From IMG/VR virus record IMGVR_UViG_3300042519_001676, positions 20,295 through 84,294 of that record: a stretch of DNA of 64,000 bases. One strand, given 5' to 3'. The notes below the pieces were generated by a model that was given only the letters and a program-made list of their open reading frames with translations, had not been told where the DNA came from and searched no databases. Below are positions 1,306-30,189 of the stretch, in pieces; positions within the stretch are counted from its first letter, which is position 1, and every line of letters begins with the position of its first letter. The position numbers and the translations under genes were made by a program. This stretch comes from a virus.

Positions 1306-1689
1306 ATGACCAACAAGGACGAGTTTCAACAAAAGTTTCCATTCATAACCTGCATCAAAACCTCAGATAATGAGTATATAGGTATCATTGTAAATCACGA
1401 TGATAACGTTACTAGCATATACAACTATGCTGATATACGCAACGAAGAACATAAACACTTGTTCTTAGAAATGGGAGAAGTTTGGTGGTGGGAAAGTAAT
1501 AGGAAAATCCCTATCAACATTTTTCTAAAACAAGAAATGGTGGCTTTCAGGCCTTTTATAAAAACATTCAACAGCAAAGATGTTGAAATTATTTTTGGGC
1601 CAATTGTTAATCTAGGTGAGATTGCTGAAAAGCGTGTCAAACGCAAGAGCATTCAACTGGTTAGAAGTGTTAAGAAAAAGGGTAGCTAA
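1306..1689 (+). CDS. Hypothetical protein (127 aa), late plus-strand gene
   Basis: A 127-residue protein beginning MTNKDEFQQKFPFITC. The start is the first ATG after the TATAAATA box at 1266-1273; an upstream TTG at 1276 is rejected because it would lie before the predicted transcript start. The protein is mixed alpha/beta with a WWW cluster (EVWWWESN) near residue 58 and a strongly basic C-terminus (KRVKRKSIQLVRSVKKKGS), suggesting nucleic-acid or membrane-surface contact. It is an isolated plus-strand gene among minus-strand genes. Its 3' end overlaps the convergent DnaE-like gene by 20 bases. I do not recognise a family. Confidence 0.6.
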   Translation: MTNKDEFQQKFPFITCIKTSDNEYIGIIVNHDDNVTSIYNYADIRNEEHKHLFLEMGEVWWWESNRKIPINIFLKQEMVAFRPFIKTFNSKDVEIIFGPIVNLGEIAEKRVKRKSIQLVRSVKKKGS

Positions 1690-2248
1690 CCCGTTCGCAA
1701 ATCAAGTTAAGTTGAACAACAATAACGTGAGCATAAGCAACAGCATGAGCCTTCTTAAAGAAATAAGCATCATCCGTTTTAGTCCATATCTCCTGTTGGA
1801 TACCTTGGAAACCTTCTTTCTCGCATACTGGGATGAGATGTTTTTTACCCGGGCGGAGAAGTGCAAGGAACATGGATAATTCTTCAATGCTCTTAGGCTT
1901 TAATTTTGCAATCAATTGATGATACCCATTGATATGAAACAGCTGGTCACATACCGCCGGATCTTCTAATAAGTCCCAAAGCGGCTCAGCTGCTAATAAT
2001 TCTTTAAGATGTTCTTCATTACGGACACCTTCATATGCACTAACATTTAAAAAATCAATTTTAAAGTAGCCTCGAGATTCTGCTTCTTTATAATTGATAT
2101 TGGCATTGCCGGTTAATGAGTTAACAGGAATTGCATGACAATACGCACCTGTGTTATGTTTCTTTCCGTCTTCAAGACAAGCAGGCACATGCTGAATTAT
2201 ATCCAACACATTTGAACGATTTAAGAAATCTATATCAATATCAGGCAA
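1670..2248 (-). CDS. Miniature DnaE-like protein (DNA polymerase III alpha core motifs)
   Basis: This 192-residue protein carries, in the correct order, the landmark motifs of bacterial replicative polymerase DnaE: PDIDIDF at residues 2-8 (DnaE PDFDVDF, with two catalytic aspartates), an HxTGxxxHAIP-like segment at 31-41, KIDFL at 63-67 (the third catalytic aspartate), LFHINGYHQLIAKLKPKS then LALLRPG at 128-134, and KKAHAVAYAHV at 165-175 (DnaE NKSHAAAYA). All three palm aspartates appear kept (D5, D7, D65). The PHP domain, most of the fingers, the beta-binding region and the OB/tau regions are absent, against about 1,100 residues in real DnaE. It overlaps the start of its minus-strand neighbour by 8 bases. 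Whether it polymerises, primes, or is a decoy/assembly factor is unknown. Confidence 0.7.
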   Translation of the reverse strand: MPDIDIDFLNRSNVLDIIQHVPACLEDGKKHNTGAYCHAIPVNSLTGNANINYKEAESRGYFKIDFLNVSAYEGVRNEEHLKELLAAEPLWDLLEDPAVCDQLFHINGYHQLIAKLKPKSIEELSMFLALLRPGKKHLIPVCEKEGFQGIQQEIWTKTDDAYFFKKAHAVAYAHVIVVQLNLICERVSYPFS

Positions 2249-2933
2249 TTCCAGTCTCCCTACAAATTTCTTTTACAAACGCCACATCCGCCGGGCAGTC
2301 TCTAAATTTCTTTGACCAAAAAGATAAATCTAATGTTTGATTAATCATATCCAATTGCTCGTCATTAAACATTCTCATTAGTTCAACTCCGCTCCCAGAA
2401 TTTAGAACTAACCAGGGACTGACTTTTCCATCTCTAATATGATGTACTGCACGATTTACATTTACGTATTTGAAGTAATGTGCAAAATTTGCATTTTGTT
2501 CTTCGCCCCATTCCATCATATATTGCAAGCTTCTTTCAATAGCACTTTCTACAGGCTCTATTTTGATCAGCTCACTTAGATATTTGTCATACAGATCATC
2601 TCTACACCAATGATCTAATTTAATTCCGCTCTTAACTACGTAGTCGATAAATCGTTCTGGATACAAAGGATTTACATTGTTAATAAAGCTACCAAATTTT
2701 ACAAAGGCATTATAGTATGCACTCTTACAAAAGTCACTATAGGGTTTTTGTTTTTTTGCAGCCTGAGTAAGTTGATAAAATCTGTTGTAGGCAAAGAATC
2801 CCATCTGGACTCTTTTTTCATCCTTTTGTAGCACTCGCCTTTTTCGTTCACACATATGAGCAACAAGAGTTTTCTCTTGCATAAAACTCTTGTTACAATG
2901 CACACATGTAAAAGGTTGGTCAACTAACTCCAT
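2241..2933 (-). CDS. Zinc-finger protein (230 aa), function unknown
   Basis: The N-terminus is a C2H2/C2HC-type zinc finger: C10 and C13, then H26 and C28, with the classical spacing and a basic tail (ERKRRVLQKDEKR). The remaining 200 residues are helical, rich in aromatic residues (GFFAYNRFYQL; FAHYFKYVNVNRAVHH), and have no motif I can name. The finger points to DNA, RNA or protein binding. The gene sits between the DnaE-like and clamp-loader-like genes, with an 8-base overlap at its 3' end and an abutting start (2933) at its 5' end. It is therefore probably co-expressed with replication functions. The assignment as a gene is strong; the function is open. Confidence 0.75.
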   Translation of the reverse strand: MELVDQPFTCVHCNKSFMQEKTLVAHMCERKRRVLQKDEKRVQMGFFAYNRFYQLTQAAKKQKPYSDFCKSAYYNAFVKFGSFINNVNPLYPERFIDYVVKSGIKLDHWCRDDLYDKYLSELIKIEPVESAIERSLQYMMEWGEEQNANFAHYFKYVNVNRAVHHIRDGKVSPWLVLNSGSGVELMRMFNDEQLDMINQTLDLSFWSKKFRDCPADVAFVKEICRETGIA

Positions 2934-3394
2934 TACTCGTATTCTTTCCGTTGTTTCTTATCAAATCCCATTTTATCAAACAATTCTTGTTTGTCTTTAT
3001 CGTCCATCAATGATGCTAACACTTTGATATCACTTAACTTCATTGCAGGATATAATTCTTCAAGAAGCTTCTCAATCTTGTTTGCTTTGCCTTTGGCACC
3101 TGACTTCAGGTATGTGTATTTGACAGGCACACCAACTCCGCAACTGGCAAATAATTGCCAAAGAAGTTGCTTATGACCTTTACTTAAAGTCCAGTGATTG
3201 ATATTGACAAGATCATTAACTCGTTCGAGAATGAACTGATATGTTTCGGGATCAACTTGAGGATTGCTTACATATCTCATTAAAATATACGGACTAAAAA
3301 CTTTCTTCTCTTCGTCAGTTAAGTTCTTATAAAAATCGTGGTCTCTACGATTTACCGCTGTTAATTCTCTGCCAATGTCTAGTTTTGCTGCCAT
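2933..3394 (-). CDS. Possible clamp-loader small subunit (gp62-like)
   Basis: A 153-residue alpha-helical protein. The segment LTDEEKKVFSPYILMRYVSN, followed by a VNDLVNINHWTLSKGHKQLLW-type helix, resembles the N-terminal part of phage clamp-loader small subunits (T4 gp62 family), where a short Pro-aromatic motif and Arg precede conserved helices. The C-terminus is Lys-rich (KDKQELFDKMGFDKKQRKEYE). T4 gp62 is 187 residues, so the length is somewhat short. The gene shares position 2933 with the start of the zinc-finger gene, an arrangement suited to translational coupling. The assignment is a weak family resemblance plus context; no catalytic motif is expected for this subunit. Confidence 0.45.
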   Translation of the reverse strand: MAAKLDIGRELTAVNRRDHDFYKNLTDEEKKVFSPYILMRYVSNPQVDPETYQFILERVNDLVNINHWTLSKGHKQLLWQLFASCGVGVPVKYTYLKSGAKGKANKIEKLLEELYPAMKLSDIKVLASLMDDKDKQELFDKMGFDKKQRKEYE

Positions 3395-3818: not shown

Positions 3819-4322
3819 TTACCAGCACCTTGAGTAATCTACTAGTTCACTTTGACGACTGACTTCTTTAACAAAGTATGCACACGGAGGTTTAGGATCG
3901 TTGTTTAACGGAGTACATAACAGTTGTCCTGGCTTCATTTTAGGAAAATACCAACGAACATCTTGATACACATCAACAATATCAATATCGTAAAACTCGG
4001 GTCTAAATGAGCTCAATGGATTAAAAATAAATGTTCTAAAGCCGCGATCATTCAAACTAGTCAGAGGTATAATTTCCATATCGGGACCCTCTGGGTCTCC
4101 TACAATAGTACACCAATCTAATGGCATGTTTACAGTATATGGCCCGACTTTAAGTACCGCAGCAGGTGCAGTGAACGACTCTAAGAATATTAGAGGAATA
4201 TAAAAATAGTCAGGATTTTGTGGATCGCTATTGTCCATAACACTGAATCTGAGATCTTCATCAACCTCATCTGGTAGGTCGTTTAGATGATAAATCTTAT
4301 TATCAAGTGTGAGAATTTGCAT
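3819..4322 (-). CDS. Hypothetical protein (167 aa) upstream of small genes, downstream of uvsW
   Basis: A 167-residue acidic protein starting MQILTLDNKIYHLNDLPDEV. It shares position 4322 with the end of uvsW, so the two are probably translationally coupled. It is rich in Pro, Asp and aromatics (DYFYIPLIFLESFTAP; FNPLSSFRPEFYDIDIVDVY) and looks like a compact beta fold. No enzyme motif, membrane segment or zinc site is apparent. The tight coupling suggests a role in replication/recombination or its regulation, but that is inference only. Confidence 0.6.
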   Translation of the reverse strand: MQILTLDNKIYHLNDLPDEVDEDLRFSVMDNSDPQNPDYFYIPLIFLESFTAPAAVLKVGPYTVNMPLDWCTIVGDPEGPDMEIIPLTSLNDRGFRTFIFNPLSSFRPEFYDIDIVDVYQDVRWYFPKMKPGQLLCTPLNNDPKPPCAYFVKEVSRQSELVDYSRCW

Positions 4323-5779
4323 TAATATTTTACCTTTTCAATTGTGAACGGATACTTGGCGTCTTTGTAGAACTTCTTTCGTTCAGTAAGGTGTCTCTTC
4401 GCATACTTCGTCGACGCTGTAATATCCCAGATTTGTACAAAGTCTTTGTCGTCTGCTTTTCTAATGCCTCGCCCAATGCTTTGTATAACCCTTGTAAAGC
4501 TCTTTCCGGACTCAACCATAACCAAATTAAAAATACGGGGGATATTAAGACCCACAGCGGCCACACCATAAGTCGCCACAATAATCTTTTTATCAGCAGT
4601 TCTAACTTCGTCATACTCAGTCTTCCGGTCTTTAGTTTTTACTTCTCCCGAGATAAAGACACTATCTGGGATGTTGTCTACTATTATACGTCCTGTTTCA
4701 ATCCTGTCAACCAGTACTAACGTATTTCCACTTTCTGCAATTCCTGCAACCAGTTTACTAATCCATGCAACTCGATCTTCATCGGTCACTAGATACTTTA
4801 GTTCTTCAGGATAACTGCCAAATTCTTTCCACTCAGCAGTTTGGATAACATTTACATGGCAGGTGCTTAGTACTCCTGCCTCTTGCAGAGTATGTGCCTT
4901 AACTGTGTGTACTACTTCGCCTAATGCACATTTAATATTTTGAAAATCTATATCTTCTTTAGGCACAGTTCCGGTTAGTCCCCAACGAATGGGTGCATTG
5001 GCAAGATTGTTGGTTAACAGTTTCTTCAACACTTCTGCCTTGGCCATATGCACCTCATCAACCATTACTGTTTGAACACCTTCAAGTAATTCTGCCAGTG
5101 TTAATAACTCTTCGTCGGTGGTATTTTTAGATCTCTTGTCAAGAATATTCAAACTTTGCCAAGTACAGATAGTATGTGTCTTATCAAGATTTTTTCTATC
5201 TCCGTAGTACACTCCGACGTCTAATCCGCAGTTAATGAAGTCTTCTTCAGTTTGTTCAACTAGACTTTTGTTAGGAACAATGGTCACAGTTCGACCATAT
5301 TTTTCACAGATTTTTGCCAACGTGGCTGTGGTAATTGTCTTACCAAAGCCCGTGGCAATTTCTTGAATGCACTGAGGATTTTCTAGAAACTTGTTAACAA
5401 CTTCAACTTGATCATCACGCAGTCTAATCTTTGATCCGGCAAACCGATGACCTTCAGGCCATGTTTGGTCACCCCAAAAATCTTCAGCAACTAGGTCAAA
5501 GCTCAAGGCCATAGGAACACGATGATCTTCTAGTACAGGATCGTAACCCTGATGTACTAATTCCTCAATAACATCAGGTAACATACTCATATAGGTAGTG
5601 CCACCAAGTCCAAAGAAGCTAGTGCAACCGTCCCAACGACCTAATTTATAAGCAGGCAAGTAGCGAGCTTTTTGATCAAAATATTTGAATTTTGTAACCA
5701 GTTTTTTTCTTGTGTCAAGGTCTAAGTTTTCAATTTTTACATTGACTTCATCCTTGATTATAATTTTACAATAGGCCAA
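4322..5779 (-). CDS. uvsW: UvsW, superfamily 2 DNA/RNA-DNA helicase
   Basis: A 485-residue SF2 helicase matching T4 UvsW in length and layout. An N-terminal domain (residues 1-115, with GRWDGCTSFFG) precedes the motor: RDDQ near 121 (Q motif), Walker A ATGFGKT at 142-148, DEVH at 241-244 (motif II), LTGT at 268-271 (motif III) and QSIGRGIR at 433-440 (motif VI). UvsW unwinds branched DNA and R-loops and regresses forks during recombination-dependent replication and repair. In T4 it is the late switch that removes RNA primers at R-loop origins. The gene overlaps its upstream HARP-like neighbour by 14 bases, and uvsX and SSB lie in the same minus-strand run. Confidence 0.93.
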   Translation of the reverse strand: MAYCKIIIKDEVNVKIENLDLDTRKKLVTKFKYFDQKARYLPAYKLGRWDGCTSFFGLGGTTYMSMLPDVIEELVHQGYDPVLEDHRVPMALSFDLVAEDFWGDQTWPEGHRFAGSKIRLRDDQVEVVNKFLENPQCIQEIATGFGKTITTATLAKICEKYGRTVTIVPNKSLVEQTEEDFINCGLDVGVYYGDRKNLDKTHTICTWQSLNILDKRSKNTTDEELLTLAELLEGVQTVMVDEVHMAKAEVLKKLLTNNLANAPIRWGLTGTVPKEDIDFQNIKCALGEVVHTVKAHTLQEAGVLSTCHVNVIQTAEWKEFGSYPEELKYLVTDEDRVAWISKLVAGIAESGNTLVLVDRIETGRIIVDNIPDSVFISGEVKTKDRKTEYDEVRTADKKIIVATYGVAAVGLNIPRIFNLVMVESGKSFTRVIQSIGRGIRKADDKDFVQIWDITASTKYAKRHLTERKKFYKDAKYPFTIEKVKY

Positions 5780-6968
5780 ACTGGTATCCTGATTTAGTTT
5801 TATCTGTATATCTAATTACGTCTGCCCTACCATCCAAGTATGTAGAAACACTATAGTGAACTCCGGACAGACTTCCTAGATTTACAATTAGTTTAAATTC
5901 TATGCCACTTTTAATCAATGGTTTAGGAATCTTTTGGCTGACAAATACAATTTTAGTGTTATCGTTAATAGGGTTGTTTAAGTTGTTCTGTTTTACTAGT
6001 TCGTTAAACATGCCACCGGTGTCACTGTCTAGTCTAAACAATACACTAATGTCTTTTTCTTTAAATCCTTGAGATTTTAACCAGGTAGTCCATGTTTTTA
6101 AAGTGAAGAATTCGCCGTAGCCGGGAATGATGATCAATGCGGGAACATTATGCTTGAACAGCTCAGTAAACTGATCAATACTATTTTCATTGACGTCAAA
6201 TTCTGGCTTATTCGATATCGATTCTTCTAAAAACGATGTCAGAACTGGTGAAAAATTTGCATTTTTTATCAGATTTTCAACAGTTTCGTCCCATGTACTA
6301 ATGCCGTAGTGCTTGGCCAGTAACAGAGTCTCAATTAGATCATTAGATTCAGGTTGAGGTACTGTTCGATATACATTCTTGAACAAGTACTGGTTATTTT
6401 CGTAAGCCACTGTGGGTACATAGTTTTCCATATTTTCAAGAATTTCGGAAATTTGACCAGAAAATTCAAGAAATTCAGGATCCACTATAAAACTATCATT
6501 TAGGATATGTTGAGTGATCCATAGTACATTATTTTCTTCTAAGGCAAACTTCCATGCCTTAGAGTCACCGTTCCACTCCACAGTTTTAACTTTTACTTCT
6601 GATTTGAATTTTCTAATTTTTTCAACAATTTCCTCAGAAAATGGAAATTTTATCAAAATTTCCTTCCCTTCTATTTTAATGGACTTTTCTTGAAGTGCAG
6701 GTTCTATTAAATTAAATTTAAACTCAGGAGCATCAAGGGCCACGGTAACTGCGGTGCCGAGGTCAGCGGTAAGCTGGCCTTGGTATTTTTTACAAAGACG
6801 TAAAACCAGTGATCGTTGCTTCTCTGTGAAGCCTCGGCCAGCTGATGGATTGGCCGCAAGGCTGTGTACTACTTTTTCATCCATTGCCCATAAAGAGATT
6901 GGATTAGAAAATAGATAGCTTCCGGTGTTACCGAGCCTACAGATGAGATCTTCAATGTAGAGTTTCAT
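5766..6968 (-). CDS. HARP-like protein (400 aa) coupled to UvsW
   Basis: A 400-residue protein with no complete helicase motor of its own. Residues about 105-155 (FPFSEEIVEKIRKF, then VKTVEWNGDSKAWKFALEEN) look like a HARP domain, the DNA-binding module that SMARCAL1-type annealing helicases carry next to an SF2 motor. The C-terminal half has alternating hydrophobic strands (ALIIIPGYG; TKIVFVSQ; FKLIVNLGS) like a degenerate RecA-type fold without a Walker A. The gene overlaps uvsW by 14 bases, which suggests a DNA-remodelling partner for UvsW. The HARP reading is mine by eye, so moderate for the domain and low for the role. Confidence 0.5.
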   Translation of the reverse strand: MKLYIEDLICRLGNTGSYLFSNPISLWAMDEKVVHSLAANPSAGRGFTEKQRSLVLRLCKKYQGQLTADLGTAVTVALDAPEFKFNLIEPALQEKSIKIEGKEILIKFPFSEEIVEKIRKFKSEVKVKTVEWNGDSKAWKFALEENNVLWITQHILNDSFIVDPEFLEFSGQISEILENMENYVPTVAYENNQYLFKNVYRTVPQPESNDLIETLLLAKHYGISTWDETVENLIKNANFSPVLTSFLEESISNKPEFDVNENSIDQFTELFKHNVPALIIIPGYGEFFTLKTWTTWLKSQGFKEKDISVLFRLDSDTGGMFNELVKQNNLNNPINDNTKIVFVSQKIPKPLIKSGIEFKLIVNLGSLSGVHYSVSTYLDGRADVIRYTDKTKSGYQFGLL

Positions 6969-6969
6969 T

Positions 6970-7425
6970 TTATATTGACACGTCTTCCATACCGGCGGTA
7001 CGGAGTTTAATGATGTTACTAACTTGCCACTGTTTTATGTCTAATCCCTTGATAATACCCAACCATTGATTACGCAAGAGTGCAAACTCATTAATGATCT
7101 TTTCCATATCAACTACGTCTGCTTCGCCGTCGACATATTTTTCAACATCTCTAGAACTAAGAGCCCTAGCATAGTTTTCTAAATATTTTTTAAAGGTCTT
7201 TGATCTGATTCTGCGAAGTTCAATGTTCAGGTATTCGAGGATACCTTCAATTTCTTGAAGTTGATTAAATCGATGTGCTACAATTCCTGGTAAGGCGGCA
7301 GAAGTTTTTTCTATGTTGCCATAGACTTTAACCTCGCCCCTTGCCTGTTCTAATTCGGAATAGTAATGATCGATACAGCCTGGTAAGTGAGCAATATCAT
7401 TGCTAACTTTGCTGTACCAGTTCAT
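6970..7425 (-). CDS. Possible UvsY-position recombination mediator (151 aa)
   Basis: A 151-residue helical protein starting MNWYSKVSNDIAHLPG. The central part (residues 55-110) is a predicted coiled coil (EIEGILEYLNIELRRIRSK) followed by a charged linker (VEKYVDGEADVVD) and a C-terminal helix ending near GLDIKQWQVSNIIKLR. T4 UvsY is a 137-residue helical oligomer that loads UvsX onto gp32-coated ssDNA. Size, coiled-coil nature and position between uvsW and uvsX/gp32 fit that role. I do not see a decisive UvsY signature, so the assignment rests mostly on context. The start overlaps the preceding stop (TAATG). Confidence 0.5.
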   Translation of the reverse strand: MNWYSKVSNDIAHLPGCIDHYYSELEQARGEVKVYGNIEKTSAALPGIVAHRFNQLQEIEGILEYLNIELRRIRSKTFKKYLENYARALSSRDVEKYVDGEADVVDMEKIINEFALLRNQWLGIIKGLDIKQWQVSNIIKLRTAGMEDVSI

Positions 7426-16655: not shown

Positions 16656-17026
16656 TAGGGTAAAATGTTACGTTTAACCACTTCAACGGGTGTAATGTTT
16701 TGTGTTGTGCCCAATACACTGGTCTTAAATCTATTGAAATTTAATATTTCCGATACTAACTGGCTCAGCTCAACATTTCCTAAATTTTTCATAGAATCGA
16801 GAACGTTCATCGGATTAAAGCTGTCACGCTTGGCCTGCATCATAATTGTTATGGCAATATTTTCTGCAGATTCGTCGCTGAATCCTTTGTTAGACAATAG
16901 CCCTTTCATTGCGGTCAACGTGTCGTTATGTAATTGAACAGGTAAATCATTATATTGATTTAAGTTCTTGTTTGATAAATCACTTGCAGACCTTGCTGCT
17001 TGTTTAGGTGGTATATTGGTATACAT
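16655..17026 (-). CDS. Probable virion assembly protein (123 aa)
   Basis: A 123-residue helical protein. The region LTAMKGLLSNKGFSDESAENIAITIMMQAKRDSFNPM reads as a small helical domain, followed by a second helix pair ending with LNFNRFKTSVLG. It overlaps both neighbours by TAATG junctions, forming a coupled trio with the tube-initiator-like gene and gp4. It has no T4 counterpart I can name. Position between tail-tube-like and head-completion genes suggests a role in tail or head-tail assembly. Confidence 0.65.
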   Translation of the reverse strand: MYTNIPPKQAARSASDLSNKNLNQYNDLPVQLHNDTLTAMKGLLSNKGFSDESAENIAITIMMQAKRDSFNPMNVLDSMKNLGNVELSQLVSEILNFNRFKTSVLGTTQNITPVEVVKRNILP

Positions 17027-18642
17027 TATGCAAAATATGTAGTTGTTGAATCGTCGTCATCTTCTTGGACTTCGTATACTTCTGCTTCTGAAACATCTAT
17101 GTCTTCTGTGTCTGAGAATCGAGTTTCGGCATTTAGCCTTTCAGTTTCGAACGGATCGTCGGCACCTATTGTTTCATCTGAATTTTCAGAAGCTTCTGCC
17201 TCTGCTAGTAATGTTTCTAATTCTGCATCTTCTAAAGCAATAGTGTTTAAACTTGATGTTAATTTATCAGGATCTGTGTAGCCAAGCTCATCAAATTCTG
17301 CATAGATTGCTTCTACTGCTTCAGGGTCCCCGTCTGCTGCTGCAATCCTTGCATCTAGTTCGCCTTTTAAACTGCGACTTTGTGCAATCTGTGCGGAAAT
17401 ATCTGAGGCCAATGCTGCTTTTTCTGCACGAGCAGTTGCAATTGCGGCAGATGTGCCGGCAGCACTAGACGGCAACAATCCTTTGATTGCGTTTCCGATC
17501 TTATCAGTTAATCCGCCAACTGCTCCGCCGATGCCTGCCGCTAATCCGCCTAAATTAAAGCCACCGCCACCGGCCTGCTGCGACCTAGGTACTGCGGTAG
17601 TAGGCATCTCTCCTGGTAATGTTGCTAGAGAAAGTCCAGCAGGACTTTTTCCAGTTAACACATCAGGTAACTTTCCAGTTCTTGCAACTTTGTCTAAAAT
17701 TCCGTAACCTTCTGATAAGATACTTGCCTTGGAGATATTCTTAGCATTGTTAAAAATTGCAGCGGCACCTCTTGCAGTTTTGAATAATCCTAACGGACTT
17801 GCATCACCTGCACCGCCAAATATTTCTCCAATTCCGGGGATAATGCCGCCTGGCCCTAATATACTATTGTTGCCGCCGCCAAAAATACTCAATGGGCCGG
17901 GAGTTGTATCGTAATGTATAGTAGCAAACCCAGTAGGGCTATCTCTTTTAATTTGCCCAGTTCCGTACAGTACTGTTTCAAATTGCACAGTCATATTATT
18001 TTCTAACAATTTACTCTGTGTTTGATCTAGTTTATCGTGACTGAAATCTGTAATAATAGGATTGACTAGTACAAACGCTGTAAACTGTTTTCTATTGAGC
18101 TGATAAATTTCAATAGATCTAAAGAAAGGATCTGTTTGCCCATTGTTTAGACCAAACGCTGTGCTTTCGTTAACATTGGTTCCTATCTTTTTATATTTTG
18201 TATCTGCAAATCCTGGGGCAATGGTCAATGCAGAAGTGTTCTTTCCGTCAACAAAATAATAGTTGTAATAGGCTTTCCACATACCAGTAGTGGTGTTATT
18301 GTGATCATCATGAAACGCCATAGCCACTGGTTGATATTCAATTTTACTCTGTACAATAGCTTTTCTATTGTACTGATTAATTGTTTCTGTAGCAATTCTG
18401 TATTTAGGTAGGTCGATATTTTTTACCAGCAAACCTAACTCAGCACCGTTCTTTGTTAAAAACTGTTCAGTGATAGGATTGTTATTTCTGTTGATGTTAA
18501 ACACAACATAATACATGAACCCAGACTTGGGTGCTAGTCTAAAATAGTCATCAACATACAATCTACTCGCATGTTGGTAGTCTTTAACCTGCGTAGTGGT
18601 CGTAAGTGCTTGACCTAGAAAATTAGTGAATGCATTTGCCAT
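17026..18642 (-). CDS. Tail-tube-like protein, possible baseplate tube initiator (gp54-like)
   Basis: A 538-residue protein. Residues 1-260 resemble the tail-tube fold (LYVDDYFRLAPKSGFMYYVVFNINR; QFTAFVLVNPIITDFSHDKLD; NNMTVQFETVLYGTGQIK), the fold T4 gp19 shares with initiator gp54. A Gly-rich hydrophobic stretch (residues 265-400: repeated GGLAAGIGGAVGGL type) follows, then an acidic C-terminus. The length exceeds gp54 (320), with the Gly-rich part extra. Expressed from a late box with 5-base spacing, just after gp19 and gp18 in transcription order. A second tube-like protein next to the true tube gene fits the initiator role. The Gly-rich segment could be membrane-active; that is speculative. 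Confidence 0.6.
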   Translation of the reverse strand: MANAFTNFLGQALTTTTQVKDYQHASRLYVDDYFRLAPKSGFMYYVVFNINRNNNPITEQFLTKNGAELGLLVKNIDLPKYRIATETINQYNRKAIVQSKIEYQPVAMAFHDDHNNTTTGMWKAYYNYYFVDGKNTSALTIAPGFADTKYKKIGTNVNESTAFGLNNGQTDPFFRSIEIYQLNRKQFTAFVLVNPIITDFSHDKLDQTQSKLLENNMTVQFETVLYGTGQIKRDSPTGFATIHYDTTPGPLSIFGGGNNSILGPGGIIPGIGEIFGGAGDASPLGLFKTARGAAAIFNNAKNISKASILSEGYGILDKVARTGKLPDVLTGKSPAGLSLATLPGEMPTTAVPRSQQAGGGGFNLGGLAAGIGGAVGGLTDKIGNAIKGLLPSSAAGTSAAIATARAEKAALASDISAQIAQSRSLKGELDARIAAADGDPEAVEAIYAEFDELGYTDPDKLTSSLNTIALEDAELETLLAEAEASENSDETIGADDPFETERLNAETRFSDTEDIDVSEAEVYEVQEDDDDSTTTYFA

Positions 18643-18689: not shown

Positions 18690-18709
18690 AACAGGTTAAT
18701 TAACCTGTT
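18690..18709. repeat. Perfect 20-bp palindrome across the gp19 stop codon
   Basis: AACAGGTTAATTAACCTGTT is fully self-complementary and spans the last codons and the TAA of the tube gene, 8 bases from the terminator stem. Confidence 0.8.
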
Positions 18710-19338
18710 GCTAAGGAAGATAATGTTCTTCCTACAGTAGCTCCTAAGCCAACTGGTTGACCTGAAGGTCCGATCTGTAGTGCGTTATCGTATTGGATTG
18801 TAAGTGCAATCTCCATCGGAGCACTCTCAGCATATGCCAATTCGTTATAGTTTACTGACTGCAAATAGCAACCATAAACTTCCCATGTTTCTAATACGTT
18901 AGCTGCCCAATTTGCATTGTCGCCATTGCCGCCGTCAAGCATCTCAATACGAGTTAAGAACTTGTATTCAGCACCTGCTGCTGCACTTGCTTGTTCAAAG
19001 AAATCAAACTGCTTCTGTAGTTGTTCGCCAACTAACTTAGTAACGTTGCCTTGAGCATCGTCGCGAAGAGTCAAGTTCATTGGTTGCCATGTGTGCTTAC
19101 CGGCATAGTTAATCTGGCTGTTATACACGTGAATTGTTTGATTTTCAAACTGAACTTGCGGTCTAGCTGCCGTTACAACTTGCTTGGTTAGCTCAGTGGT
19201 AGGTTTTGTAACACCAAAATTTTCTAGTGATACACGGAAGCGATACTTCAACTTCGGCATCAATAGACCTTGAACGGTACTACTTTGTCCACCACCTGCT
19301 AGTGGAACTGTGAATCTGCTTAAACTTGCGATTGCCAT
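18700..19338 (-). CDS. 19: Tail tube protein, T4 gp19 type
   Basis: A 212-residue tail tube subunit, longer than T4 gp19 (163). Family features: LMPKLKYRFRVSLENFG near the start, QVQFENQTIHVYNSQINYAGKHTWQPMNLTLRDD in the middle, then LETWEVYGCYLQSVNYNELAYA and a final strand MEIALTIQYDNALQ. It stacks in hexameric rings inside the sheath and is the channel for DNA ejection. It lies 32 bases after gp18 and is preceded by a late box and a strong ribosome site (AAGGAC-AAGGAGC). A terminator follows it. Confidence 0.93.
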   Translation of the reverse strand: MAIASLSRFTVPLAGGGQSSTVQGLLMPKLKYRFRVSLENFGVTKPTTELTKQVVTAARPQVQFENQTIHVYNSQINYAGKHTWQPMNLTLRDDAQGNVTKLVGEQLQKQFDFFEQASAAAGAEYKFLTRIEMLDGGNGDNANWAANVLETWEVYGCYLQSVNYNELAYAESAPMEIALTIQYDNALQIGPSGQPVGLGATVGRTLSSLATG

Positions 19339-19370: not shown

Positions 19371-22300
19371 TTATAGTCCAGCTTGAATATCGCCAGTGTT
19401 TTTCAAGCGTAGTGGAATATAGATAAATTCAACTGCTTTTACTGGTTCAATAGCAATGTCTAACCATAGTTCTGAACGGTCTACTCTTGTAGGTGTGTTG
19501 TTTGTTTCATCACACACTACTAAGAAGTCGTACAGTGCTCGCTGTCCTACTAACTCTAGTAAGAAGCTTTCTGTTGCTTGTTTGATCTCGTTACGAGTAA
19601 TTCTATCGTTAGGTTCAAACAAGAACGGCTTAACTAATAGACTTAACTGTCTACGTAAGTATGCAACTAAACGTGCAACGTTAATTCTGTCTAATGCACT
19701 GGCGTTTCTTGCACGAGTGTATTGACCAAAGTTAACAATGCCAGCACCTGGAATTGTAGCGATTGGGTTAACTTTAACTCCTGCTAGTACATCACGTAAG
19801 CTCTGTGGCAAGCTAGTTGTTTTAAACTCGCCTTCACTAGTAATGTAACCAACACTGGTAGCATTGTCAACACCGCCGCGACGTGTGCCAGCCGGAGCAA
19901 ACCACTGGAAGCTCTTAGCATCGCTGTTAACGATAGTACGTAGCATCATGTGGCTTGGTGGAACAACAATAGCATTTCCTAAGTTGTCATTTGTATAACC
20001 GCTTGGATAGAACATAGCCATATATTCGTCATAGCTAACTGCACCTTCTTCACTGTTGTCAAATGCCAACGCTGTGTTGAAGCCCCAGTTGTTTAGTTCT
20101 GTTCCGTTAGGTTGTAATCTAAACGGTGTATCACCAACAACAAATGCTGTTAATCCGCGATCTGTGTTGAATGCAATCATATTTTGAATTGCTTCTGGAT
20201 ATCCAGGAGCTGCAATCAAATTAAAGATTACAGTGTCAGTGTCACGAATACTTTGGTTAGTGTCAATTAGGGCTTTGAATGCTTCTACAACAAAACCTCG
20301 TTGAGCCCAACGACCAAAGCTGCCCTGGCCGGTTGGTTGGTTAGGACTTACTGTGATCCAACGGTTAGCAACATAAGGAGTAGAGCTGTTAGATCCGTCC
20401 ATTTGCTCGTCGTTGTAACGTGGGTTCTTACCGTCGTTTGCATCAATGTTGATGTGTGTTGTAACATACTTCTTAACGTTGAATCCTGAACGGCGTAGGT
20501 TCCACAAATGCATACCACGTGGGTATAATGCTGGATCTGGTGCGTCTGGGTCTAAGTAGTCACTGGCTAGTAGATCAACAATGTCTGCCATCTCTTCGCT
20601 TGTTCCTGCTGTGCTCCAACGTGCATCTGCAAACAACCATCCGTCTGGAGTTGTTTGATCTGTAGTGTCTTGTAAAATCCATTTTCCGCCTGTACGGATA
20701 TAAACTACTCTGCCATAGTTACTGACGTCAGCTGTGCTGATCCAAATGTCGTTATCAACTAATGGATCACCGTTGCTCTGTGTAGTAGGTGCTACACTGG
20801 CAACAATTGGACCTGCAGGATCAGTTAAAGGATATACATTCTTATAACCTTTCCATGTTGTTCCGTTGTGAACCATAATATCTACTTCGTCAACAACACT
20901 GCTATACCATAATTGACCATCAATTGGGTCTGTAAATGGTGTTTGTGCTGCTGCTTCGTATACTAAAGGCTTCCAGTTACTTGCATAGAACGTGATGTCT
21001 CTGCTGTCGTATGTAGCTTTTGCGTATAAATTCTTTGTTCCAGTTTCAATACCGGTAGTGCTGTTTCTGCTCCAACCGGAGAATCCTAACACACTAGTCA
21101 ATGGTGAACCTGTACCATTCTTAAGATTGATCTGGCCGCCTATTGCGTGTTGAATTGTTAAACTTGTAGCTGCTCCGCTAGCGTTTGAACTAGCAACACT
21201 AGCAGTTACATGCGTCATATTCAGTGCGTTAATCTTGCTGATAATATCATCAACATCGTCGCCTGCTACTAAGTTAACAGTGTATGCAGTGCTATAATTA
21301 GCAACGCCAGCAGTGGATGTGTCTAAACCTTCGTAAATTACAAAGTTAGATGTTGTAGAAACTGTTCCAGTTGTAGCAACGCTGGTAATCTTTGTTGCAC
21401 CGCTGGCGTTTCTTCTGTAGGCTTTGAATGCAGCAACCTGCGGACTAGATGTAGAAGTTGTTGCACTTCCTGCACCCATTGTAAAGTTCTGCTGAATATA
21501 GACTCTGCCAACTGGAATATCACCAGTAGCATCGATAGTATTAATAGCTGTTTGATGCTCATCAAAAATACTAGCAGATTGCAAGCTAAATGCACCTTGT
21601 GCTTCGCTGTACAACTTAACATACCAATCTGCACCGCTGTTAGGCACAGTTGTTTTAACATATACAGAACCTGTTGGCTTATCGCCAAAATCTGGATACT
21701 TAGTGTGAGGTGCTTGATATAGAGTTACTGCATCATAAGTAGCTGCTGGTAAACCAATAGCAGTTAACATTAATGCTAATCCAGTACCTTCTACAATTCT
21801 AATCTTTCCGTCAGATACAGAACCGTCACTCTTTGCACGAGCATCTGCATATAGCTCTAAGAACCCGCCGGCATTTACTCTAGAACCAACTCCATGCACT
21901 CTCATAGCAGTGTTAATGCTAGTTGCTAGTGCAGTTAGTGTAGTTCCGCTTAGGGTAACAGTTTGACCGTTGATGATCAATGTGTTGCCATTATAAGCAG
22001 TTAATGCAGGGTTAGATGCAGTAGATACCACAACAGGGTGGCTTGTCTGCCAGCATGTGCTAGAGAATGTTGCAGCAGAAGCAAAACCTGCTTCAAAGTT
22101 TGTACCGACTACTACCCAATTTCCGCTGCTGTTTTTGTACCATACAGTGTTGGCATTATCGCTAGTTACTACTATTGCATACTGACCGTTAGAGCCAAAA
22201 CTTGCTTTTGGAGTAACGCCAGTACCGCCATCAGTTACTGTGGCATAGTTATCGTTATCAATTACTAGAGGAACTTTGTTAGTAAAGCTGTCTGTAGAAG

Positions 22301-22751
22301 TGTTCCACTCAAAAATACCCCAACGTGTGTTAGATGTATCAAGCCAGTATGTTCCGTCTACTGGTTCGCCCACTGGCATAGAACTTGCTGCACTAATTTG
22401 ACTTAGATCTAAATCTGCACGAACAACATATGCACGTGAACTTACACCTAATACAGAATATGCTGCTTGTAAGCCGTATTCGTTTTGTTCACCACCGTGT
22501 ACTGGATTTCCGCTTGCATCTTGATAGAATTGCGGAGTTCCGAATGTATCAGTTAGATCACGTTGGCTAGTAATTAAATAAACTCGACCAGCATTTGCTG
22601 ATAGTGTTCCGGGTGCCGTACCTGTACCGCTAGCATTCTGCTTGTTGGATGCGGTTGCCACAAAAATCAAAGGTACAGTCGACGGTGCTGCCGGTAAGTA
22701 AAAACTCTCGTCAATTACGCTAACTTGTACGCCTGGTGAATTTAAAGCCAT
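19371..22751 (-). CDS. 18: Tail sheath protein, T4 gp18 type, with a very large insertion
   Basis: A 1,126-residue tail sheath protein, against 659 in T4. The N-terminus (SPGVQVSVIDESFYLP; NEYGLQAAYSVLGVSSRAYVVRADLDL, residues about 85-120) and the last 430 residues (RGMHLWNLRRSGFNVKKY; QRGFVVEAFKALIDTNQ; ARLVAYLRRQLSLLVKPFLFEPND) are canonical sheath. Between them, about residues 125-695, sits an insertion of roughly 570 residues containing several DGxxWxx modules (DGTYWLDTSNTRWGIFEWN; DGQLWYSS; DNDIWIST; GKWILQD), likely surface-exposed beta domains. Sheath contraction drives the tube through the envelope. It has its own late box, leader and GGGAG ribosome site. Confidence 0.93.
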   Translation of the reverse strand: MALNSPGVQVSVIDESFYLPAAPSTVPLIFVATASNKQNASGTGTAPGTLSANAGRVYLITSQRDLTDTFGTPQFYQDASGNPVHGGEQNEYGLQAAYSVLGVSSRAYVVRADLDLSQISAASSMPVGEPVDGTYWLDTSNTRWGIFEWNTSTDSFTNKVPLVIDNDNYATVTDGGTGVTPKASFGSNGQYAIVVTSDNANTVWYKNSSGNWVVVGTNFEAGFASAATFSSTCWQTSHPVVVSTASNPALTAYNGNTLIINGQTVTLSGTTLTALATSINTAMRVHGVGSRVNAGGFLELYADARAKSDGSVSDGKIRIVEGTGLALMLTAIGLPAATYDAVTLYQAPHTKYPDFGDKPTGSVYVKTTVPNSGADWYVKLYSEAQGAFSLQSASIFDEHQTAINTIDATGDIPVGRVYIQQNFTMGAGSATTSTSSPQVAAFKAYRRNASGATKITSVATTGTVSTTSNFVIYEGLDTSTAGVANYSTAYTVNLVAGDDVDDIISKINALNMTHVTASVASSNASGAATSLTIQHAIGGQINLKNGTGSPLTSVLGFSGWSRNSTTGIETGTKNLYAKATYDSRDITFYASNWKPLVYEAAAQTPFTDPIDGQLWYSSVVDEVDIMVHNGTTWKGYKNVYPLTDPAGPIVASVAPTTQSNGDPLVDNDIWISTADVSNYGRVVYIRTGGKWILQDTTDQTTPDGWLFADARWSTAGTSEEMADIVDLLASDYLDPDAPDPALYPRGMHLWNLRRSGFNVKKYVTTHINIDANDGKNPRYNDEQMDGSNSSTPYVANRWITVSPNQPTGQGSFGRWAQRGFVVEAFKALIDTNQSIRDTDTVIFNLIAAPGYPEAIQNMIAFNTDRGLTAFVVGDTPFRLQPNGTELNNWGFNTALAFDNSEEGAVSYDEYMAMFYPSGYTNDNLGNAIVVPPSHMMLRTIVNSDAKSFQWFAPAGTRRGGVDNATSVGYITSEGEFKTTSLPQSLRDVLAGVKVNPIATIPGAGIVNFGQYTRARNASALDRINVARLVAYLRRQLSLLVKPFLFEPNDRITRNEIKQATESFLLELVGQRALYDFLVVCDETNNTPTRVDRSELWLDIAIEPVKAVEFIYIPLRLKNTGDIQAGL

Positions 22752-29790: not shown

Positions 29791-30189
29791 TCAATCCTCT
29801 ACTGCATCGCTATAGTAATTTAGAGTTTTTAAGAAATCATATGCTTGTTCTACCACTGTTTTTGTAGATGCCATGTCAATAGACATCCAGAAATTAGTTT
29901 CTGATTTGGTTTCAACTCGCATGTCTGCAGGTACATCTGTAGGATAAACTCCAATATGTGCAATTGGTAATTTGCCTGCATCTCTTGCAGCTTTATTATA
30001 AAATACCTGTACGCATACTCTACCGTAGTATCCTTTTTTCCACTGCCAATCAGGACAGTTAGCCGGTCTAACACCTCCCGGATCCGGAATATCTGTTGGA
30101 ATCTTATGTGTTATAACTTGACTTATTACATGGTACGCAGAGTCGGCGTCAATACCATTAGCAAGTTCATACCTTTTAATTAGTGCCAT
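29791..30189 (-). CDS. Fibre-linked hypothetical protein (132 aa)
   Basis: A 132-residue protein, [20 protein letters not shown] at the start, with [24 protein letters not shown] and [24 protein letters not shown] as beta and helical parts. Its start overlaps the end of the collagen-like fibre gene by 14 bases, so it is made with that fibre. A fibre-assembly chaperone or tip-associated role is plausible from position alone. No family recognised. Confidence 0.65.

Follow-up and report, generated by a model that had tools for sequence, protein, structure and literature searches.

A small phage gene encodes one half of a predicted split, minimal family C DNA polymerase

Genes at the locus

The window, by which we mean the whole 64,000-nucleotide stretch of viral DNA analysed here (positions 20,295 to 84,294 of IMG/VR record IMGVR_UViG_3300042519_001676), carries the following genes and signals near its start.

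1306–1689, plus strand: conserved neighbour phrog_11637 (searched as 1312–1686), convergent with the next gene and overlapping its 3′ end
1670–2248, minus strand: the C-half of a predicted split, minimal Pol III alpha; 192 aa with a TTG start by direct reading of the window; catalytic Asp3, Asp5 and Asp65, finger residues Arg132, Lys135, Lys165 and His168
2241–2933, minus strand: C2HC zinc-finger protein (phrog_11058), a probable partner, adjoining the C-half gene upstream
2256–2261, minus strand: Shine-Dalgarno-like AGGGAG, read directly, 7 nt ahead of the TTG start
2933–3394, minus strand: small protein, probably a gp62-type clamp-loader small subunit, from gene order and a weak Pfam match
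3819–4322, minus strand: conserved neighbour phrog_11279, from locus conservation
4322–5779, minus strand: UvsW-type helicase, context of the replication-recombination cluster
6970–7425, minus strand: UvsY-type recombination mediator, context

The start codon of the C-half gene sits inside the end of the zinc-finger gene. A preliminary description, made from the sequence alone, had proposed a 192-residue DnaE-like protein with three aspartates and motifs in DnaE order at this place, and it was borne out: the open reading frame was exact, its motifs (PDIDIDF at residues 2–8, KIDFL at 63–67, LALLRPG at 128–134 and KKAHAVAYA at 165–173) follow one another as in DnaE, and matches to PHROG families, to PDB sequences by profile and to solved structures by model all point the same way.

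Other parts of the window also deserve mention. Between the UvsW- and UvsY-type genes lies a 400-aa ORF (5766–6968, minus strand) that matched neither PHROG nor Pfam families at E ≤ 0.01. Four giant ORFs of 2187–2437 aa stand close together at 30176–63297 (minus strand), and two ORFs lying between them match structural and tail-fibre families; a tail sheath homologue at 19371–22751 (minus strand) is unusually long, at 1126 aa versus a family profile of 915 positions; and two adjoining tail-tube homologues of 538 and 212 aa occupy 17026–18642 and 18700–19338 (minus strand).

Homology, conservation and distribution of the C-half

In profile searches the C-half matched PHROG 11778, named ‘DNA polymerase’ (E = 1.1e-61), and the phage DnaE family phrog_405 (E = 3.7e-8). 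As a single sequence it fell under the cut-off of the Pfam finger domain (E = 0.0014) and far under that of NCBIfam TIGR00594 (E = 0.0013), and phmmer gave no match among PDB sequences up to E = 10. A family profile built from 20 members and run against all PDB sequences matched DnaE alpha chains only (9/9 at E ≤ 1, best 0.0016), and each of the three printed alignments showed the motif pieces in their proper sequence. We hold the homology to family C polymerases with high confidence.

Of 154 unique C-halves, one is cut by a contig end, and the other 153 all kept the three catalytic aspartates; Arg132, Pro133, Lys135, His168 and Tyr172 were kept in 154/154, and the GRGS segment, which the C-half lacks, was found as GxGRGS in the N-half of relatives in 87/87 unique sequences; most of these loci were fetched by peptide patterns, some spanning the aspartates or GRGS, so that the counts are biased upward. 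All three aspartates were likewise kept in ten C-half phage records found by tblastn, and GxGRGS in 14 N-halves found by profile. The metal ligands, which the preliminary description had taken to be intact, were thus lost in no homologue covering their positions. Of 35 printed pairs, 23 had a finite dS and gave dN/dS ratios between 0.05 and 0.12; dS was saturated in the other 12. The C-half gene is genuine, well conserved and under purifying selection; a lone decaying remnant is ruled out by dN/dS together with the invariant active site.

By tblastn, the C-half was found in 63 of 50,697 phage records and in none of 72,556 plasmids, while a more distant member used as query returned 64 phage records, among them two further ones from Alishewanella phages of 141 kb. 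At least 549 stretches in IMG/VR and 13 MAG contigs encode a relative. The phages infect hosts from many genera, and the named hosts among the rows seen belong to what we take to be Gamma- and Alphaproteobacteria. The pair of halves is easily missed, since the C-half is often annotated in public records as hypothetical or as a membrane protein.

Predicted structures and the partner gene

Structurally, the AlphaFold model of the C-half (pLDDT 87.7, pTM 0.67, from 55 sequences) matched DnaE or PolC at all of ranks 1–14 (Z 6.5–9.7, rmsd 4.5–5.7 over 160–187 residues), the next entry having a Z of 3.1. Foldseek gave weaker matches (best E = 9e-4, query TM 0.33–0.45 in the first seven rows) and, against viral models, ranked polymerases of the phage DnaE type first (best E = 6.8e-4). 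In model superpositions, residues 1–189 mapped to residues 401–781 of E. coli DnaE, which comprise palm and fingers, and also to Taq 461–838, PolC 971–1296 and M. smegmatis 419 onward. The predicted fold is therefore that of the family C palm, as the preliminary description had proposed, and not an unrelated one. The model carries its three aspartates on a Pol beta-type palm that would be completed only by the partner half.

That partner, the N-half, was sought with Pfam PF07733 in 15 related C-half-bearing records (nine phage records, five virus contigs and one MAG bin) and was present as a small ORF in 14 of them, the sole exception being a 199-kb contig that also lacks a family B polymerase. 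The MAG bin gave a full-size, host-type DnaE as its best PF07733 match and contained the small ORF too. N-half proteins are 161–183 aa long, counted from ATG starts that we chose, have GxGRGSS close to the C-terminus and finish with, or a little beyond, an EFL, EFF or EFM motif. Their profile matched Pol III alpha only among PDB sequences (9/9 at E ≤ 0.1, best 9.4e-6). Across the phage collection, 59 of the 60 C-half records listed (of 63) were also among the 60 N-half records listed (of 234), many other records from the N-half search being larger DnaE proteins of other phages, weakly matched. One record, PP728206 (109.5 kb, marked unverified), holds a C-half, a zinc finger and a family B polymerase, and no N-half was found in it. 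That a partner gene exists in relatives is supported with high confidence, and what had been described as a lone palm remnant is better read as one half of a split enzyme, since the GRGS half of the palm is a separate gene in those relatives.

The N-half model (pLDDT 88.0, pTM 0.63, from 50 sequences) matched DnaE or PolC in 12 of the 14 entries listed (Z 7.7–12.2; the other two, 2.5 and 2.2). Residues 67–169 mapped to E. coli DnaE 276–393; 67–169 or 73–169 mapped to Taq 296–455 and PolC 825–965, and 71–169 to M. smegmatis 306–413. No structural match was listed for the first 66 residues, from which a new fold should not be concluded. In these superpositions the halves are adjacent, non-overlapping parts of one DnaE palm: the C-half begins at E. 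coli DnaE 400–401, and the gap between the halves is 5–7 residues on the E. coli, mycobacterial, Taq and PolC structures. On phrog_405 (1190 positions), the N-half likewise falls within 322–437 and the C-half within 442–809. The mapped ends place the split just before the PDFDVDF motif.

Beyond these two pieces, no PHP, HhH, OB or C-terminal part was found in any of 13 related genomes searched with phrog_405 at E ≤ 1, all matches starting at position 322 or later and ending by 809, apart from one stray match of 27 positions in an unrelated frame (W01, E = 0.01). The C-half protein itself starts at the palm, without PHP, and the earlier statement that PHP and the clamp-binding parts are absent agrees with the 13 genomes.

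Two technical explanations of the split were rejected. A split intein would find no room, as the N-half stops 1–5 residues past its EFL-type end (79/79 with the motif, of 87 unique) and no more than about ten residues of the C-half precede PDIDIDF. Misassembly is rejected because complete phage genomes, and not metagenome contigs alone, show the halves as separate ORFs.

Divided polymerase genes were also seen in other phages. In Mycobacterium phage Fowlmouth (L284, 3903–7093), the DNA polymerase is annotated as two adjacent, slightly overlapping genes of 600 and 463 aa, and some 190 residues of the first follow its GRGS part, which puts this split later than in the jumbo phages. Judging from profile lengths and match positions, phrog_13169, phrog_7513 and phrog_12219 may be further phage DnaE halves with a split point close to that described here.

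Gene neighbourhood

Primase and helicase genes accompany the C-half in a replication-recombination cluster. Neighbours were counted over 182 loci with a C-half, some contigs being present in overlapping copies. Among loci long enough to tell, the zinc-finger gene lies upstream on the same strand in 168/170; the corresponding counts are 156/158 for the gp62-like gene and 131/136 for phrog_11279, and the convergent gene lies downstream of the C-half in 158/165. The approximate distance from the zinc-finger stop to the C-half start, in 140 unique pairs, amounts to an overlap in 23, up to 100 nt in 8, 101–600 nt in 66 and more in 43, which makes the direct adjacency seen in the window a minority case. 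The zinc-finger protein was found in 61 phage records, of which the 60 listed all had a C-half as well. Its finger is of the C2HC type, with the cysteines and the histidine aligned in 10/10 members, and all significant PDB matches of the family are to the finger.

The distance between the halves themselves varies. XacN1, CM1 and RAS14 carry the zinc-finger gene between the halves, 3.3 kb from the N-half, and the three genes share a strand. The XacN1 series begins with a helicase and a phrog_11279 relative, continues with N-half, gp44, gp62-like gene and zinc finger, and reaches the C-half 11 kb further on; the genes from N-half to C-half named here lie on the same strand. In Slicko01 (141 kb), which also has a family B polymerase, gp44 is followed by the gp62-like gene, a 206-aa protein with a zinc-finger-type Cys/His pattern, a small gene and the C-half, with the N-half about 11 kb away. 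Most of the genomes looked at that are not of the XacN1 type have their halves about 30 kb to more than 100 kb apart (about 30 kb in Vibrio phage 2.275.O, PBECO4 and RaK2; more than 100 kb in SCTP-2, Atu_ph07, Phosso and G001). The N-half lies 1.1–3.5 kb from gp44 in all four large contigs with a gp44 match, of six searched, and 1.1 kb from it in RaK2. Thus, both halves are linked to clamp-loader genes in one phage or another, and the preliminary suggestion of a subunit acting with zinc-finger and clamp-loader-like neighbours fits this gene order.

The gp62-like protein is encoded beside gp44 in Slicko01 and one gene from it in XacN1. One member of eight matched Pfam Phage_clamp_A, weakly (E = 0.0031), and the family gave no clamp-loader match against PDB; for a relative, CBB, the published account reports that BLASTP found no gp62 (PMC5259590). 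From gene order and the one weak Pfam match, the product of 2933–3394 is probably a gp62-type clamp-loader small subunit. A few kilobases from the C-half in three relatives, genes are annotated as a polymerase exonuclease subunit or Pol III epsilon (L084, 6721–7542; L088, 3802–4620; L090, 11859–12452), possibly a proofreader for the split polymerase.

Completeness of the contig

T4-type phages require gp44 and a polymerase. Neither the N-half, gp44 nor a family B polymerase was found in the window’s own 84-kb contig, and the 151-kb contig of the relative closest to it, with 99% identity between the C-halves, was also without all three. Because all three are absent, the 84-kb contig is probably incomplete, and the pairing with an N-half in this particular phage is argued by analogy; the closest relative seen with all three (L094, a 221-kb contig) is 72% identical. 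The expectation in the preliminary description of a family B polymerase in such T4-type phages thus holds for the relatives, in 14 of the 15 related records, and not for the window’s own contig, where none was found. In a separate set of 14 C-half records, 13 were without an N-half; these contigs, of 42–199 kb, are probably fragments, though this is not proven for all, and the two of the 13 checked for a family B polymerase were both without one.

Proposed function and alternatives

Functionally, we consider it probable, judging from sequences and models, that the two halves assemble into one active miniature family C polymerase that works beside the family B enzyme. The C-half would be the Mg2+- and template-binding half of this two-protein enzyme, and the N-half, encoded elsewhere in the genome, would supply the GRGS nucleotide-binding motif, the two joining non-covalently to form one Pol beta-fold active site. 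Such an enzyme would do without PHP, the large thumb and the clamp-binding, OB and tau-binding parts. We place fair confidence in assembly and catalysis and low confidence in the exact task, which would most likely be short DNA synthesis next to the family B replicase, either primer extension beside the primase-helicase or gap filling in recombination-dependent replication. The C2HC zinc-finger protein is probably a third subunit with a DNA-binding or scaffolding role, and the gp44/gp62 clamp loader probably helps the split polymerase onto DNA.

In its fullest form, which we put forward tentatively and as less than an even bet, this amounts to a three-protein miniature family C polymerase (N-half, C-half and zinc finger) with its active site formed in trans, loaded by gp44/gp62 and extending primers or filling gaps for the family B replicase; it would possibly be the smallest family C enzyme and would give T4-type phages a two-polymerase replisome. 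DnaE serves PolC in such a way in Bacillus, and we propose this as a parallel to the split polymerase and the family B replicase.

Against the reading as one polymerase stands the absence of the thumb and of most of the fingers. Many small enzymes with a Pol beta fold are transferases, and the halves might accordingly form an active nucleotidyltransferase that is not template-directed and adds nucleotides to, for example, primers, RNA ends or proteins. The invariant triphosphate- and metal-binding residues would suit such an enzyme, and the phrog_405 searches found no OB, HhH/clamp-binding or C-terminal part; however, the DnaE RPG and KxH finger residues are also invariant or nearly so, and the genes lie in a replication-recombination cluster with primase and helicase and near clamp-loader genes, so we regard a transferase as unlikely.

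Two further readings would dispense with catalysis. The very reduced size, and the presence of a family B polymerase in relatives, would suit a catalytically silent, structural replisome factor whose fold is retained for partner binding, yet the metal ligands and GRGS are invariant in two separate genes and binding alone would not need them, which leaves this reading quite improbable. The preliminary description had also raised a decoy for host replisome partners. Descent from a host-type replicase family would be in keeping with a protein that binds host Pol III partners, but no clamp- or tau-binding region was found with phrog_405, the catalytic residues are conserved, and the protein occurs in phages of many host genera together with the phage’s own partner genes; we give the decoy very little credence. 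We thus favor a split polymerase. Should the halves prove to work together as an enzyme, family C catalysis would need no more than about 360 residues on two chains, and T4-type phages would operate polymerases of two unrelated families. A concrete candidate for a third protein is the product of the zinc-finger gene, whose 60 listed records in the phage collection all include the split polymerase.

Comparison with known systems

The split was already predicted in print in 2021. Iyer et al. (Viruses 13:63, PMC7824862) describe a phage-specific, split minimal Pol III alpha in group 2.2 jumbo phages, encoded by two distantly located genes for N-terminal NTP-binding and C-terminal Mg2+-/template-binding subdomains, beside a family B polymerase. 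The C-half of the window fits this description as the separate C-terminal Mg2+-/template-binding protein and is a new metagenomic member. That text contains neither ‘zinc finger’ nor ‘gp62’, and its section 3.4.1 gives no split residue and no clamp-loader linkage; added here are the exact split point, the C2HC zinc-finger partner gene, the clamp-loader linkage of both halves and the 141-kb case. Related pieces appear in other accounts: a 172-aa piece noted as truncated in CBB (PMC5259590), alpha and epsilon subunits listed for Atu_ph07 (PMC6102473), two Pol III subunits listed for AP-J-162 (PMC11242549), and PF07733 in 51.9% of one jumbo-phage cluster (PMC9123017). Among titles and abstracts of the open-licence PMC literature, we found no report of an activity test of the split polymerase, of follow-up or of zinc-finger work.

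The PHP domain is called universal in family C in one article (PMC12926913). Compared with bacterial DnaE and PolC, the phage C-half shares the palm and finger motifs in order, the three catalytic aspartates and a matching predicted fold, with GRGS in the partner protein of relatives. The bacterial enzymes, however, are single chains of 900–1200 residues in the matched structures, whereas the phage pair totals about 360 in two genes, and their PHP, large thumb, HhH/clamp-binding, OB and C-terminal domains have no counterpart found in the pair. Cyanobacterial DnaE is also split between two genes, its products being joined by a split intein; there, as in the phages, one alpha subunit derives from two genes, but the phage split leaves no room for an intein. 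To our knowledge, T4 has no family C component, in which it differs from the C-half phages, and the gene cluster around the C-half is of the T4 type, with its replisome of gp43, gp44/62, gp41/61 and UvsX/Y/W.
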